Shown here piece by piece: positions 1-27,137 of a stretch of DNA of 35,542 nucleotides. Numbering within the stretch: position 1 is the stretch's first letter; the number at the start of each line of letters is the position of its first letter. A program made the position numbers and the translations under genes. The stretch comes from Ignavibacteriota bacterium (GTDB taxonomy: Bacteria > Bacteroidota > Ignavibacteria > UBA10030 > UBA6906). The notes beneath the pieces are model-generated. The model had not been told where the DNA came from and ran no database searches. It worked only from the letters and a program-made list of their open reading frames with translations. The stretch spans positions 32,262 through 67,803 of the forward strand of contig PMNE01000049.1 in assembly GCA_003162635.1 (NCBI GenBank). Direction: 5' to 3'.

Positions 1-1194
1 TTAGACCATGCCTACACGCTCCATGCGGAGGCATACAAGAAGATATTCACGCGATGCGGACTGCGTTTCTTTGTCGTCGGCGCATCGAGCGGGGCCATGG
101 GGGGAACCGGCTCGCAGGAGTTTATGATGGAGTCGGATGCTGGCGAAGATGTCATCGCCCTCTCTGCAGACGGCCGGTATGCGGCAAACGTGGAAGTTGC
201 GTCGTCCGACGTGCCGAAGGGCGTTCGGCACTCAGAGAACCCTCCCGTGGAAGAGATACACACGCCTGGCGTCAAGACGATCGATGAACTTGTGGCATTC
301 CTGAAGGTTGACGAAGCGCGGCTGGCGAAATCGGTGGTCTACTGGGGAGGCGAGAAGCCCATCCTGGTCCTGATGATGGGAAACGACGAGTTGAATGAGG
401 CGAAACTGGGTAGTGTTCTGGGATTGGATGTGCATCCGATGGAAGCAGAGCGTCTCCTTGCACTGACGGGGGCTGACGGCGGTTCTATTGGGCCTGTCGG
501 CTTGAAGGGATTCACGATTCTGGCGGATAAGCGGCTTGAGGGAGCCAACGGCCTTATCAGTGGCGCGAACCGTAACGACTATCATGTGAAGAACATCGAT
601 CTGAAACGCGATTGCGTGATTGACGGCTATCATGACCTCAGGACCGTGCGCGAAGGCGAGCAGGCGCCGAACGGCGGGGGCCCCTTGCGGATCGTGAAGG
701 GAATCGAGCTTGGCCATATCTTCAAACTCGGAACGAAGTATGCGGATGCCCTTCATGCGACCTTTCTCGACGAAAACGGGAAGGAAGCATCCATCATCAT
801 GGGGAGTTACGGGATAGGGATTGAACGCATCGTTGCGTGCCATATCGAGCAGAATCACGATGCGAATGGGATCATCTGGGACAAGGCCCTCGCTCCTTTT
901 GATCTGCATGTGATCGGCGTCGCCATGAAGAGCCAGGCGGTGGCGGATGCCGCGGAATCGATCTATGAGGAACTGCAGGCGGATGGATTCGATGTTCTGT
1001 TCGACGATCGAAAGGACATCAGCCCCGGATTCAAGTTCAAGGATGCCGATCTCCTCGGGATGCCCTTGCAGGTGATCATCGGGGAGAAGAACCTCGCTGC
1101 CGGAAAGATCGAAATAAAGAACAGGCGAAGCGGTGAAAGAACGCTTGTGGACAGAGGAAACCTGGCAGCGACGATTCGATCATTCCTTTCGTGA
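1..1194 (+). CDS. proS: Prolyl-tRNA synthetase, C-terminal part (5' truncated by window)
   Basis: Class II aminoacyl-tRNA synthetase that charges tRNA-Pro in the cytoplasm. The open frame runs from base 1 with no start, so about 397 C-terminal residues are present of a family usually near 570. Reading order: the end of the catalytic core (GTGSQEF), a YbaK-like editing insertion from about residue 87 (HTPGVKT) to about 220, which hydrolyses Ala-tRNA-Pro in this family, then class II motif 3 region (MGSYGIGIERIV) and the anticodon-binding domain (DDRKDISPGFKFKDADLLG). The insertion marks the bacterial-type rather than the archaeal/eukaryotic-type enzyme. The stop TGA (1192-1194) abuts the following aldehyde dehydrogenase gene, suggesting co-transcription. 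Confidence 0.97.
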   Translation, partial: LDHAYTLHAEAYKKIFTRCGLRFFVVGASSGAMGGTGSQEFMMESDAGEDVIALSADGRYAANVEVASSDVPKGVRHSENPPVEEIHTPGVKTIDELVAFLKVDEARLAKSVVYWGGEKPILVLMMGNDELNEAKLGSVLGLDVHPMEAERLLALTGADGGSIGPVGLKGFTILADKRLEGANGLISGANRNDYHVKNIDLKRDCVIDGYHDLRTVREGEQAPNGGGPLRIVKGIELGHIFKLGTKYADALHATFLDENGKEASIIMGSYGIGIERIVACHIEQNHDANGIIWDKALAPFDLHVIGVAMKSQAVADAAESIYEELQADGFDVLFDDRKDISPGFKFKDADLLGMPLQVIIGEKNLAAGKIEIKNRRSGERTLVDRGNLAATIRSFLS

Positions 1195-1205: not shown

Positions 1206-2627
1206 ATGAAAGCGGTGAAGTTTCTTGTCAATGGTGAATGGAGAAGTTCAGGAGTCAAACGTCGGGTGTTCAATCCGTACCGGACTGAAGCGGTCGCCGA
1301 GGTCTGCCAGGCATCGTCGGACGATATCGACGATGCGATCGGTGCGGCCGCGGAGGCGTTCGATGTGACCCGGCGGCTTTCCTCGGGGGAGCGCGCAGCT
1401 CTCCTGGATTCGGTTGCAGAGAGCATTGACAAGAAGAAGGCGGAGTTCGCCCGCATGATAACCGAGGAGACCGGGAAACCAATTTCGTTTTCACGAGCGG
1501 AGGTGGAACGGTCCACGTTCGTCTTCCGGACCGCCGCCGAAGAGGCGAAGAGGATGTACGGGGAGGTCATCCCGCTTGATCTTCTTCCTCAAGGGGGGGA
1601 CAGGAGCGCACTGGTGCGCCGCTTCCCGCTTGGGGTGGTTGCGGGAATTACGCCGTTCAACTTTCCGCTGAACCTCGTGGCCCATAAAGTCGCTCCCGCA
1701 ATGGCGACAGGGAATACCGTTGTGCTGAAGCCGTCATCGAAAGCGCCGCAGACGGCGCTCCTGCTTGGGGAGATTCTGTGCTCGTGCGGCATCGCTCCCG
1801 GTGCTGTCAATATGGTTATATGTGAGGGAAGTGAAGCGGAACAACTCATTACGGATAAACGAATTAAGCTTGTCAGTTTCACGGGAAGTCCGGTGGTTGG
1901 ATGGGGGATAAAGGTCCGAGCCGGACGCAAGAAGGTTTGCCTGGAACTTGGGGGAAACGCGGCGGTTATTGTTGCACCAGATGCCAATCTGGATGAGGCG
2001 CGGCAGAAGATCCTTCAAGGGGCATTTGGGAACGCCGGGCAGTCATGTATCTCGGTGCAAAGGATCTTTCTTCACGAGAGCATCGCAGACGCGTTTATTG
2101 CGAAATTTGTCAAGATGACCACGTCGCTGGCAGTCGGCGATCCGATGGATGATCGCACCGTGGTGGGGCCGATGATAGACGAGCAGGCCGCAAAGAGGAT
2201 CGAATCCTGGATCGCGGAGGCGCTCGACGGCGGGGCAGAGCTCCTCTGTGGGGGGAAAAGAAAGGGCTCTTTCTTCGAGCCGACGGTTCTGACGGGGGTG
2301 CAGCCAACCATGAAGGTGAGCTGCCAGGAAGCATTCGCGCCGGTGGTGACCATTGATCGATACACCGATTTCAAGGAAGCTGTGGCGTCGGTCAATGCAT
2401 CGAGCTTCGGACTCCAGGCTGGCGTTTTCACCAACAGCGCTTCCGACATATTCACTGCGTACAGGGAGCTTGAGGTTGGAGGAGTGATCATCAACGATTC
2501 CTCGGCCTTTCGCGTGGACCACATGCCGTACGGAGGGATCAAGGAATCAGGACTTGGGCGCGAAGGTGTCCGCTTTGCCATGGAGGAGATGACGGAGCAG
2601 AAACTGCTCTCCATAAACTTCTCATGA
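1206..2627 (+). CDS. NAD(P)-dependent aldehyde dehydrogenase family protein
   Basis: Oxidises an aldehyde to the acid with NAD(P)+. With the ATG at 1206 the protein is 473 aa, normal for the family, and begins MKAVKFLVNGEWR, a typical ALDH start; in-frame ATG 1194 and GTG 1191 are alternatives that would overlap the proS stop. Visible motifs are the cofactor-fold segment GITPFNFPLN, the general base Glu247 in LELGGN, and the catalytic Cys281 in GNAGQSCISVQR. The C-terminal YGGIKESGLGREG is also typical. The overall look is closest to the lactaldehyde/succinate-semialdehyde/GapN side of the superfamily, but the substrate cannot be told from sequence. It lies 11 bases after proS and may be translated from the same message. 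Confidence 0.93.
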   Translation: MKAVKFLVNGEWRSSGVKRRVFNPYRTEAVAEVCQASSDDIDDAIGAAAEAFDVTRRLSSGERAALLDSVAESIDKKKAEFARMITEETGKPISFSRAEVERSTFVFRTAAEEAKRMYGEVIPLDLLPQGGDRSALVRRFPLGVVAGITPFNFPLNLVAHKVAPAMATGNTVVLKPSSKAPQTALLLGEILCSCGIAPGAVNMVICEGSEAEQLITDKRIKLVSFTGSPVVGWGIKVRAGRKKVCLELGGNAAVIVAPDANLDEARQKILQGAFGNAGQSCISVQRIFLHESIADAFIAKFVKMTTSLAVGDPMDDRTVVGPMIDEQAAKRIESWIAEALDGGAELLCGGKRKGSFFEPTVLTGVQPTMKVSCQEAFAPVVTIDRYTDFKEAVASVNASSFGLQAGVFTNSASDIFTAYRELEVGGVIINDSSAFRVDHMPYGGIKESGLGREGVRFAMEEMTEQKLLSINFS

Positions 2628-24760: not shown

Positions 24761-25465
24761 ATGAAACGACGAACAGAAGTCATCATTCATCTCGCAGAAA
24801 TCACAAAGACATTTCCAGGCGGCGACGCGCACGACGGTGCGCTCGTTGTGCTCCGCGGGATATCACTCGATGTCCACCAGGGAGAGATCATCGCCGTGGT
24901 TGGCGCGTCGGGCGCGGGCAAGAGCACCCTCTTACATATCGTGGGTACCCTCGAGAAGCCGACGTCGGGGAAGGTCCTGTATGACGGTGCAAACGTGTTT
25001 GCAATGGGGGAGGAGGAACTCGCTCGCTTCCGCAACGAACGGATTGGTTTCGTATTTCAGTTCCACCACCTGCTTCCCGAATTCACGTCTCTCGAAAATG
25101 TGGCCCTCCCAGCAATGATCGGGGGAAAAACCCTGGCCGAGGTGAGGGGGCTTGCGCTGGAGCTTCTCCGGGAGGTGGGGCTCGAGGATCGTGCTGAGCA
25201 AAAACCGCCAAAACTCTCGGGAGGAGAGCAACAAAGAGTTGCGGTGGCGCGCGCGCTCATGAATTCACCCCGGATCATCCTTGCAGATGAGCCGTCGGGG
25301 AATCTGGACAGTGAAAATGCCAAGAATTTGCACAAATTGATATGGATGCTCAGCCGCAACCGGGGTCAGACCTTCATTGTCGTCACCCATAATGAGGGGC
25401 TGGCGAAACAGGCCGATAGAATCGTCCATATCGCAGATGGGATGATCAAGGGGGCAGGGCGCTGA
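24761..25465 (+). CDS. lolD: ABC transporter ATP-binding protein LolD
   Basis: Cytoplasmic ATPase that powers lipoprotein release with the two permeases. The ATG at 24761 gives 234 aa, usual for LolD; the frame is open further upstream but overlaps the permease gene and has no family sequence. Motifs: Walker A GASGAGKST (48-56), a Q-loop followed by FQFHHLLPEFTSLENV, the signature LSGGEQQRVAVARAL, Walker B RIILADEPSGNLD, and the H-loop VVTHNEGLA. FHHLLPEFTALENV-like sequence after the Q-loop is characteristic of LolD and separates it from FtsE and MacB. It is the last gene of the aspS-to-lol run. Confidence 0.93.
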   Translation: MKRRTEVIIHLAEITKTFPGGDAHDGALVVLRGISLDVHQGEIIAVVGASGAGKSTLLHIVGTLEKPTSGKVLYDGANVFAMGEEELARFRNERIGFVFQFHHLLPEFTSLENVALPAMIGGKTLAEVRGLALELLREVGLEDRAEQKPPKLSGGEQQRVAVARALMNSPRIILADEPSGNLDSENAKNLHKLIWMLSRNRGQTFIVVTHNEGLAKQADRIVHIADGMIKGAGR

Positions 25466-25530
25466 TGAAAACGACGTTTGCCCCCCCCATCGTCCAAAAA
25501 GCCGGCGGAACGGCAGAGCGAAAATAGGCC

Positions 25531-25558
25531 TTGACAAATTGCGGGAATTGTCTAAATT
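25531..25558 (+). promoter_or_regulatory. Sigma-70-type promoter downstream of lolD
   Basis: A perfect TTGACA (25531-25536), 16 bases, then TAAATT (25553-25558), four of six to TATAAT. Transcription would begin near 25565, directly before two hairpins. It lies 66 bases after the lolD stop. Confidence 0.55.
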
Positions 25559-25564
25559 GGAGTA

Positions 25565-25647
25565 TGACCGTTACAACAGTTTCTCCCCTGACTGTTGTAT
25601 GGTGTATGGTCAAGCCCGGCGTTCCCCCCAACGCTGGGCTTTTTTTG
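25565..25647 (+). ncRNA. Candidate small RNA or leader with two C-rich hairpin loops
   Basis: Between the promoter and an excellent terminator there is room for a transcript of about 83 bases. Hairpin 1: TACAACAGT (25572-25580) pairs perfectly with ACTGTTGTA (25591-25599) around the loop TTCTCCCCTG. Hairpin 2 is the terminator with the loop CCCCCC. C-rich loops that can pair with Shine-Dalgarno sequences are a known theme in small RNAs of Firmicutes such as RsaE/RoxS. Alternative readings are an attenuator leader of the DUF3098 gene 40 bases downstream, or simply the lolD operon terminator. I know of no described family that matches it. Confidence 0.4.
25613..25647 (+). terminator. Rho-independent terminator
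   Basis: AGCCCGGCGTT (25613-25623) pairs with AACGCTGGGCT (25630-25640) in 11 pairs including one G-U, with a loop of six C, followed by an unbroken run of T (25640-25647). This is the clearest intrinsic terminator in the window. It closes either the aspS-lol operon or the short transcript starting near 25565. Confidence 0.9.
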
Positions 25648-25687
25648 TACGGGAATTTGTTGACACACTTGCAGGAAGGAGTACGCA

Positions 25688-25993: not shown

Positions 25994-26374
25994 ATGGTCA
26001 TCCACGGCAGCGTTGAGGGGGGAACACGCCGGGTGAGCCTCTTGTGGGCTCTTCTCCTGTTCGCTGTGTCCGCTGCGCCCCATCACGCGGCGGCGCGGGG
26101 GAACCCGGCCACGATGCGGGAGTTCCTTTCCCGGTTTGCGGGGAAAGAGATTCTCATTGTCAACCTTCTGGAAGAGAACCTCCAGTTTGACGACGCTGAT
26201 TCCTTAACCCGGTACGTCGTGGTCCTTGATAGTGTGGCTTCGGAACACATGACCGTGCACCGGGCAGCAGGGAGCGATCGCCGTTCATTTGAATACCCCC
26301 TTGCAGAGATCCGCAGAATTACGTATCTCTTTGACGGGAAACCGTACCCACGGATAGTCATCGAAACGCAATGA
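25994..26374 (+). CDS. Small exported protein of unknown function
   Basis: Not recognised. 126 aa from ATG 25994; an in-frame GTG at 26033 would give a tidier signal peptide (SLLWALLLFAVSAAPHHAAA) and 113 aa, so the start is uncertain. The mature part is about 90 residues and appears beta-rich: EFLSRFAGKEILIVNLLEEN, then YVVVLDSVASEHMTVHR, then YPLAEIRRITYLFDGKPYPRIVIET. The alternation of short strands with a turn at FDGKPYP suggests a compact SH3-, Sm- or PRC-like barrel, but this is only an impression. It lies 21 bases after DUF3098 and 88 bases before the next gene. Confidence 0.6.
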   Translation: MVIHGSVEGGTRRVSLLWALLLFAVSAAPHHAAARGNPATMREFLSRFAGKEILIVNLLEENLQFDDADSLTRYVVVLDSVASEHMTVHRAAGSDRRSFEYPLAEIRRITYLFDGKPYPRIVIETQ

Positions 26375-26462: not shown

Positions 26463-27137
26463 ATGTATGGGTCGATGATTTCCACATCAGAGGTCCGGTG
26501 GGTGCAACGCCTTCGGTATGCCATGTTGACGTTCATTTTCTTCACACTCGCTGTGGGCCTGGCTCCAAGCCTGAGGTGCCAGGAAGCGGAGGAGACTGTC
26601 TCCACGAACCTCGGTCTGTACCAGCAATTGGCGGCCTGTATTGCGGATTCCATGGCAGTGCAGGATTCCGGCATGACCCGCTCCTCCGTCCGGGTGATGA
26701 TCGCACCATCCGACGTTCGATGGTTTCTTCAAGATGCAGTGGATGGATCGTTCCGCGCGCGCGGATGGCATGTGGATCTCTCCGATACGGCCGTGCGCAT
26801 AGCGGAAATCGGCATCCTGCAGATGCAGGTCCGCTACGGGGAAGTCCGGCGCGAGGGATTCCTCGGTGAGCGCATGACCGATCGAAGCGTCCGCATGGTT
26901 GCGCACACGAGATTGTACAGTCCGAGAAGCGGAGTCGTTCTCTCTACCGGCGACGTCACGGCGCATCACGAAGACACGGTCGCGGTCTCCCTGTTGGGCA
27001 CGATCGAGAATCCCCTGATCCCCGTGACGAAGGGATACCTGCCGCCGGAGGGATTCTTCTCCACGTGGGCGGAGCCGCTCGTCGTCATCGGCGCTATTGC
27101 CGTCGCCGTGTATCTTTTGTTCACGGTCCGGAGTTGA
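26463..27137 (+). CDS. Exported protein with C-terminal membrane anchor, function unknown
   Basis: Not recognised. 224 aa from ATG 26463, with in-frame ATGs at 26475 and about 26520; the last would start directly at the signal sequence (MLTFIFFTLAVGLAPSLRC). The mature region (about 40-195) has a segment VRVMIAPSDVRWFLQDAVDGSFRARGWHV, a mixed alpha/beta pattern seen in small periplasmic domains that bind or regulate envelope machines. A single helix near the C-terminus (about 204-221, PLVVIGAIAVAVYLLFTV) ends in a short basic tail. The product is thus a bitopic protein with most of its mass in the periplasm. It is 14 bases before the CapA-like gene and probably in the same operon. Confidence 0.65.
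   Translation: MYGSMISTSEVRWVQRLRYAMLTFIFFTLAVGLAPSLRCQEAEETVSTNLGLYQQLAACIADSMAVQDSGMTRSSVRVMIAPSDVRWFLQDAVDGSFRARGWHVDLSDTAVRIAEIGILQMQVRYGEVRREGFLGERMTDRSVRMVAHTRLYSPRSGVVLSTGDVTAHHEDTVAVSLLGTIENPLIPVTKGYLPPEGFFSTWAEPLVVIGAIAVAVYLLFTVRS

Follow-up and report, generated by a model that had tools for sequence, protein, structure and literature searches.

A candidate trans-acting small RNA of Ignavibacteria with an invariant C-rich loop, comparable in type to 6C, ar14 and LhrC

In the 6C RNA (B11) of Actinobacteria, C-run hairpin loops pair redundantly with G-tracts at ribosome-binding sites, and PMC10470900, citing Mai et al. 2019, describes it as acting without a known chaperone. The ar14 RNA (NfeR1) carries three hairpins with the loop motif CCUCCUCCC, and its C-rich loops pair at ribosome-binding sites (PMC10746234). 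LhrC of Listeria blocks Shine-Dalgarno (SD) sites with redundant UCCC sites and works without Hfq (PMC4132741), and in RepG of Helicobacter a C/U-rich terminator loop pairs with G-repeats (PMC8295292). Here we describe a locus of an Ignavibacteriota bacterium with a predicted RNA that is comparable to these in design; in the literature searched, which had subscription journals and preprints outside its scope, we found no earlier description of it.

The window analysed is a stretch of 35,542 nucleotides (contig PMNE01000049.1). The initial annotation had placed a promoter, two C-rich hairpin loops and an RNA of ~83 nt in a 222-base gap between two genes. The gap is indeed of that size (25466-25687), the promoter TTGACA-N16-TAAATT and the perfect 9-bp hairpin with its C-rich loop (25572-25599) are both present, and the terminator has the 11-pair stem and CCCCCC loop described, its tail being of seven T and not eight. 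A 5-bp helix (P1) that closes the hairpin (P2) had been overlooked (Table 1). Transcription is predicted to start at about 25565 and to end within the T tail, and the length first given was apt, the model match spanning ~82 nt. The locus scores 104.7 bits with covariance model R1 and 99.5 bits with model R2, and these models found no second match above noise within the window.

The gap is flanked by a transporter gene, for which the name LolD, taken from the initial annotation, agrees with permease-like genes upstream, and by a gene for a DUF3098-type small membrane protein. With 24.4 bits the latter falls just short of the Pfam cut-off of 25, and the family search of its own genome did not recover it; the Pfam DUF3098 model is apparently too restrictive for this class. 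Further downstream, the reading frames 25994-26374 (126 aa) and 26463-27137 (224 aa) have no Pfam match.

Table 1. Features of the small RNA locus in the window, and coordinates of the tRNA-Met-linked copies in their own loci.
Feature	Position	Strand	Remark
-35 element TTGACA	25531..25536	+	TTGAnn-N15-18-TAnnnT pattern also upstream of relatives
Promoter spacer, 16 nt	between TTGACA 25531-25536 and TAAATT 25553-25558		
-10 element TAAATT	25553..25558	+	ends 6 nt 5' of the RNA
Small RNA gene, 82 nt	25565..25646	+	model match spans all 82 positions
5' domain, helix P1 enclosing hairpin P2	25565..25612	+	folding, co-variation
Helix P1, 5 bp	TGACC 25565-25569 with GGTCA 25608-25612	+	
Hairpin P2, perfect 9 bp, TACAACAGT/ACTGTTGTA	25572-25580 with 25591-25599	+	
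C-rich loop 1, TTCTCCCCTG (= UUCUCCCCUG)	25581..25590	+	UCCCCU in all distinct sequences of the order
Intrinsic terminator with C-rich loop 2 and seven-T tail	25613..25646	+	
Terminator stem, 11 pairs including one G-U	25613-25623 with 25630-25640	+	
C-rich loop 2, CCCCCC	25624-25629	+	
Seven-T tail	25640-25646	+	
Upstream gene, LolD-like ABC transporter ATPase	24761..25465	+	ABC_tran 119 bits
Downstream gene, DUF3098-type small membrane protein, 94 aa	25688..25972	+	GTG start
tRNA-Met-linked copy L175 (family f25)	2443-2524	-	
tRNA-Met-linked copy L324 (family f25)	991-1070	+	
tRNA-Met-linked copy L325 (family f25)	1022-1104	-	

How does this RNA compare with the described families? No Rfam family reaches its gathering threshold within the window, and the nearest models, all of them below threshold, are ar14 (RF02344; 30.6 bits in the window and at best 35 in relatives, threshold 58.8), anti-hemB, RsaE/RoxS (RF01820; 21.1 bits against 79) and 6C (RF01066; 16.9 bits against 47, E = 3 for 151 bases). 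The likeness to RsaE/RoxS drawn in the initial annotation was thus apt, as RsaE is among these neighbours. Like ar14, which is the nearest model by score, the RNA combines ultraconserved C-rich loops with free stem sequence and a terminator hairpin in last position, but it has two loops, UUCUCCCCUG and CCCCCC, and no CCUCCUCCC. The two hairpins with C-rich loops recall 6C, a match of type and not of descent; the RNA differs from 6C in its first loop, which is not a plain C-run, in its extra closing helix and in its phylum. With LhrC and RsaE/RoxS it shares C-rich sites in a loop and in the terminator loop, as well as multiple copies. LhrC, from which it is set apart by description alone, is 111-114 nt long, has a third, single-stranded site and belongs to unrelated bacteria; RsaE/RoxS likewise comes from unrelated bacteria (Firmicutes), and its score lies far below threshold. 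Finally, the C-rich terminator loop is reminiscent of RepG, in which, however, the seed is the terminator loop alone, whereas in this RNA conservation is strongest in the hairpin loop.

To follow the locus across genomes we used DNA comparison and covariance models. At the DNA level a match was found in 47 of the 100 genomes searched, the window's own included, and many of the alignments begin where transcription is predicted to start. Within the window's family, 19 sequences share 89% identity over the 82-nt RNA; the corresponding figures are 25% before the -35 element, 42% in the promoter spacer and 26% in the 25 nt past the tail. The covariance search that the initial annotation had proposed was run over 98 genomes of the order with a model built from 30 sequences: it detected the sRNA in 63 of them, several having two to six matches. 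One apparent absence (G006) is due solely to an assembly gap that interrupts the member. A model from 65 sequences detected the sRNA in 67 of the 197 class genomes sampled and, at the level of the phylum, in 42 of 395; all 42 belong to the same class, and none was found outside it in the phylum sample. An exact-pattern scan of named genomes returned 45 stretches, mostly from MAGs labelled Ignavibacteriae, Ignavibacteria, Ignavibacteriales or Bacteroidota/Bacteroidetes.

The segment 25564-25649 folds at -38.9 kcal/mol (z = -6.6), and none of 200 shuffled sequences folded as low. When the region was scanned by itself, promoters (3 found, 1.6 expected) and terminators (6 found, 4.8 expected) were near chance, so that the weight of the case rests on conservation. 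Across 62 distinct sequences, 96.6% of the cells hold standard pairs. Stem co-variation, a second check suggested at the outset, is apparent in 15 of 25 pairs, which change on both sides in 133 cells as compared to 33.6 in shuffles (0 of 500 shuffles); structures slid along the alignment gave just 11-34 such cells. All three helices contribute: (i) P1 and P2 are paired in 95.1% and 98.9% of cells, with two-sided changes in 9 of their 14 pairs; and (ii) the terminator stem is paired in 95.4% of cells, with two-sided changes in 6 of 11 pairs. Since A3-A5 are model-fitted alignments, they lean towards the structure; the first covariance model came from an independent sequence alignment of the DNA matches (A1). 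The RNA must be read from the plus strand because G-U pairs would lower pairing on the minus strand to 88% of cells. An RNA with a GGGGA loop from the reverse strand is ruled out by these G-U pairs and by the T tail.

The loops, whose conservation was another check proposed at the outset, behave differently from the stems. UCCCCU of loop 1 occurs in 62 of 62 distinct sequences of the order, and CCCC in 25 of 25 from a second alignment covering other parts of the class, where it sits on quite different stems (for example GGGUUCUCCCCUGCCC or AGCUUCUCCCCUCGCU). The terminator loop is mostly C5-C7, its columns being mostly 90-100% C in the order. Either loop can be lost while the other is retained: family f14 has lost the hairpin C-loop and kept a CUCCCCCC terminator loop, and three members (L083, L324, L325) have lost the terminator C-loop and kept that of the hairpin. 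In ten loci, mostly of f14 (L311-L316, L318-L321), the RNA lies mostly 5' of short DUF3098-like frames; the first C-loop is gone, and most have CUCCCCCC in the terminator. One genome (G063) has degenerate extra copies without the hairpin loop (L074, L084, L085); its dispersed copies (these and L089) mostly retain promoter-like and terminator parts and are possibly decaying or mobile derivatives.

What do the loops bind? By analogy with the RNAs described above, they may pair with SD/ribosome-binding sites. We screened 21 genomes for CAGGGGAG-N3-11-ATG and for a reversed control, and the motif exceeded its control in 20 of them, the remaining one (G012) giving 10 and 10. Reading 80 of these sites in five genomes, we found that most open only short frames and that no two encode related proteins; thus, no target is supported by the screen. 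No recurrent or conserved target emerged in the five genomes read; the screen is a weak one, as it lacked gene calls and the true seed may be shorter. A search for the 16S tail CCTCC found it in 6 of 15 sampled genomes; this pattern was too strict, since it missed 9 of the 15, including the window's own. A search of 15 genomes for Hfq found none, the positive control having worked, and in this the RNA again resembles 6C. The rigidity of the loop 1 sequence, together with the lack of a conserved target and of Hfq in these searches, would also fit C-rich loops that bind a protein, either an RNA-binding regulator or a sponge, and not mRNAs. We consider this unlikely: the second loop varies from C5 to C7 or is lost, which is what pairing would predict and a fixed protein site would not, and among the nearest Rfam models the best-studied RNAs pair with mRNAs.

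Could the conserved element instead be translated, as the initial annotation had allowed in pointing to a short frame? An open frame from ATG 25564 (MTVTTVSPLTVVWCMVKPG...) is present in the window, and 80 of 91 members have the loop in that frame. The alignments nevertheless contradict a leader peptide and leave it with a negligible probability, for the start codon is not conserved: 8 of 91 members have ATG at that place, many having a stop or non-start codon instead, 55 of 91 lack any ATG frame of 10 codons starting within the RNA, and in 11 the frame is displaced by differences in length.

Upstream of the RNA, the pattern TTGAnn-N15-18-TAnnnT was found in 75 of 90 members as compared to 1.0% of random stretches, and in 67 of these 75 the -10 element lies 5-6 nt from the RNA. 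This promoter bears on the proposal that the element does no more than terminate the transporter operon before it. It does lie 3' of the upstream stop codon on the same strand, and would end that transcript too. A mere terminator, however, would hardly have its own promoter at a fixed distance, nor a second conserved domain with an invariant loop, and copies occur in unrelated contexts; we rejected this reading, which is extremely improbable, on the promoter and the second domain.

In most members, over several families, a DUF3098 gene follows a few tens of nucleotides 3' of the RNA, and the gap in the window holds a single promoter and a single terminator. Such an arrangement suggests a cis-acting leader or attenuator of DUF3098, another of the original alternatives, in which the terminator would stop the transcript unless a signal permits read-through. 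Yet the RNA is not always 5' of DUF3098. Free-standing copies were found in the order (L060, L062, L064, L082, L087, L078) and in other families of the class (L159, L161, L162 and L168 in f24; L172-L174 in f18/f19). L060, L062 and L064 have no DUF3098 gene downstream, their loops are intact and their promoters often so, and their genomes also carry a linked copy; linked and free copies coexist within G029, G054 and G076. Conversely, the DUF3098 loci examined in families f2 and f3 of the order lack the RNA, and no alternative antiterminator fold was evident in folding. In f24, one locus (L166) holds a near-identical tandem pair (2450-2531 and 2655-2736), 205 nt apart, in a genome where the copies total at least four. 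Three loci of family f25 have the RNA directly 3' of tRNA-Met (Table 1). Because the RNA begins at the end of the tRNA-Met gene, it would be expressed there by another route, and from its position it looks like a 3' trailer released from the tRNA-Met transcript. Thus, free-standing, tandem and tRNA-linked copies make a plain attenuator insufficient and favour action in trans, and we regard attenuation as quite improbable. At the same time, action in trans alone is not enough to explain why the RNA stays so steadily linked to DUF3098 in several families.

Taken together, comparison across genomes shows a real, uncatalogued sRNA gene, as far as sequence can tell: a conserved, non-coding structured RNA with a predicted promoter, a predicted terminator and an invariant loop. 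Its fold, strand, loops and independence from a single genomic position are likewise supported by comparison. On the same comparative grounds it shares with C-loop trans-acting sRNAs several features, namely its own promoter, an intrinsic terminator, a short untranslated RNA and unpaired C-rich loops that are conserved while the stems change. We propose that the element is probably a gene standing on its own, for an Hfq-independent sRNA of ~82 nt that acts in trans by pairing its C-rich loops with ribosome-binding sites rich in G, and this trans-acting reading appears to fit better than the alternatives first listed beside it. Stem co-variation and loop conservation, the two comparative checks suggested at the outset, both agree with the initial reading. 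A sigma-70-type promoter of its own would drive the RNA and the intrinsic terminator would end it; the transcript would form a 5' domain of two helices followed by a terminator hairpin, both with an unpaired C-rich loop exposed. These loops may serve as redundant seeds for G-rich (AGGGGA or GGAG-type) ribosome-binding sites, and pairing with the mRNA would block translation, as in 6C, LhrC and ar14. The RNA would work like the 6C/ar14/LhrC group but is a member of none of the families tested; the most fitting description is a new sRNA family within a known functional kind.

The literature searched gave us no account of how Ignavibacteria and other members of their class regulate genes post-transcriptionally. 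An sRNA with an invariant seed, whose stems are rewritten between families, provides a concrete entry point to regulation in these bacteria, and it adds another case, probably independent, of C-rich loops as seeds for ribosome-binding sites. The steady linkage to the RNA also gives the uncharacterised DUF3098 protein a testable context. A bolder view, which is doubtful at present, is that the RNA may act as a core riboregulator throughout a class of Hfq-less bacteria: it would be abundant and constitutively transcribed, and its invariant anti-SD-like loop would tune translation of many mRNAs with G-rich leaders at once, with the DUF3098 membrane protein as its functional partner.
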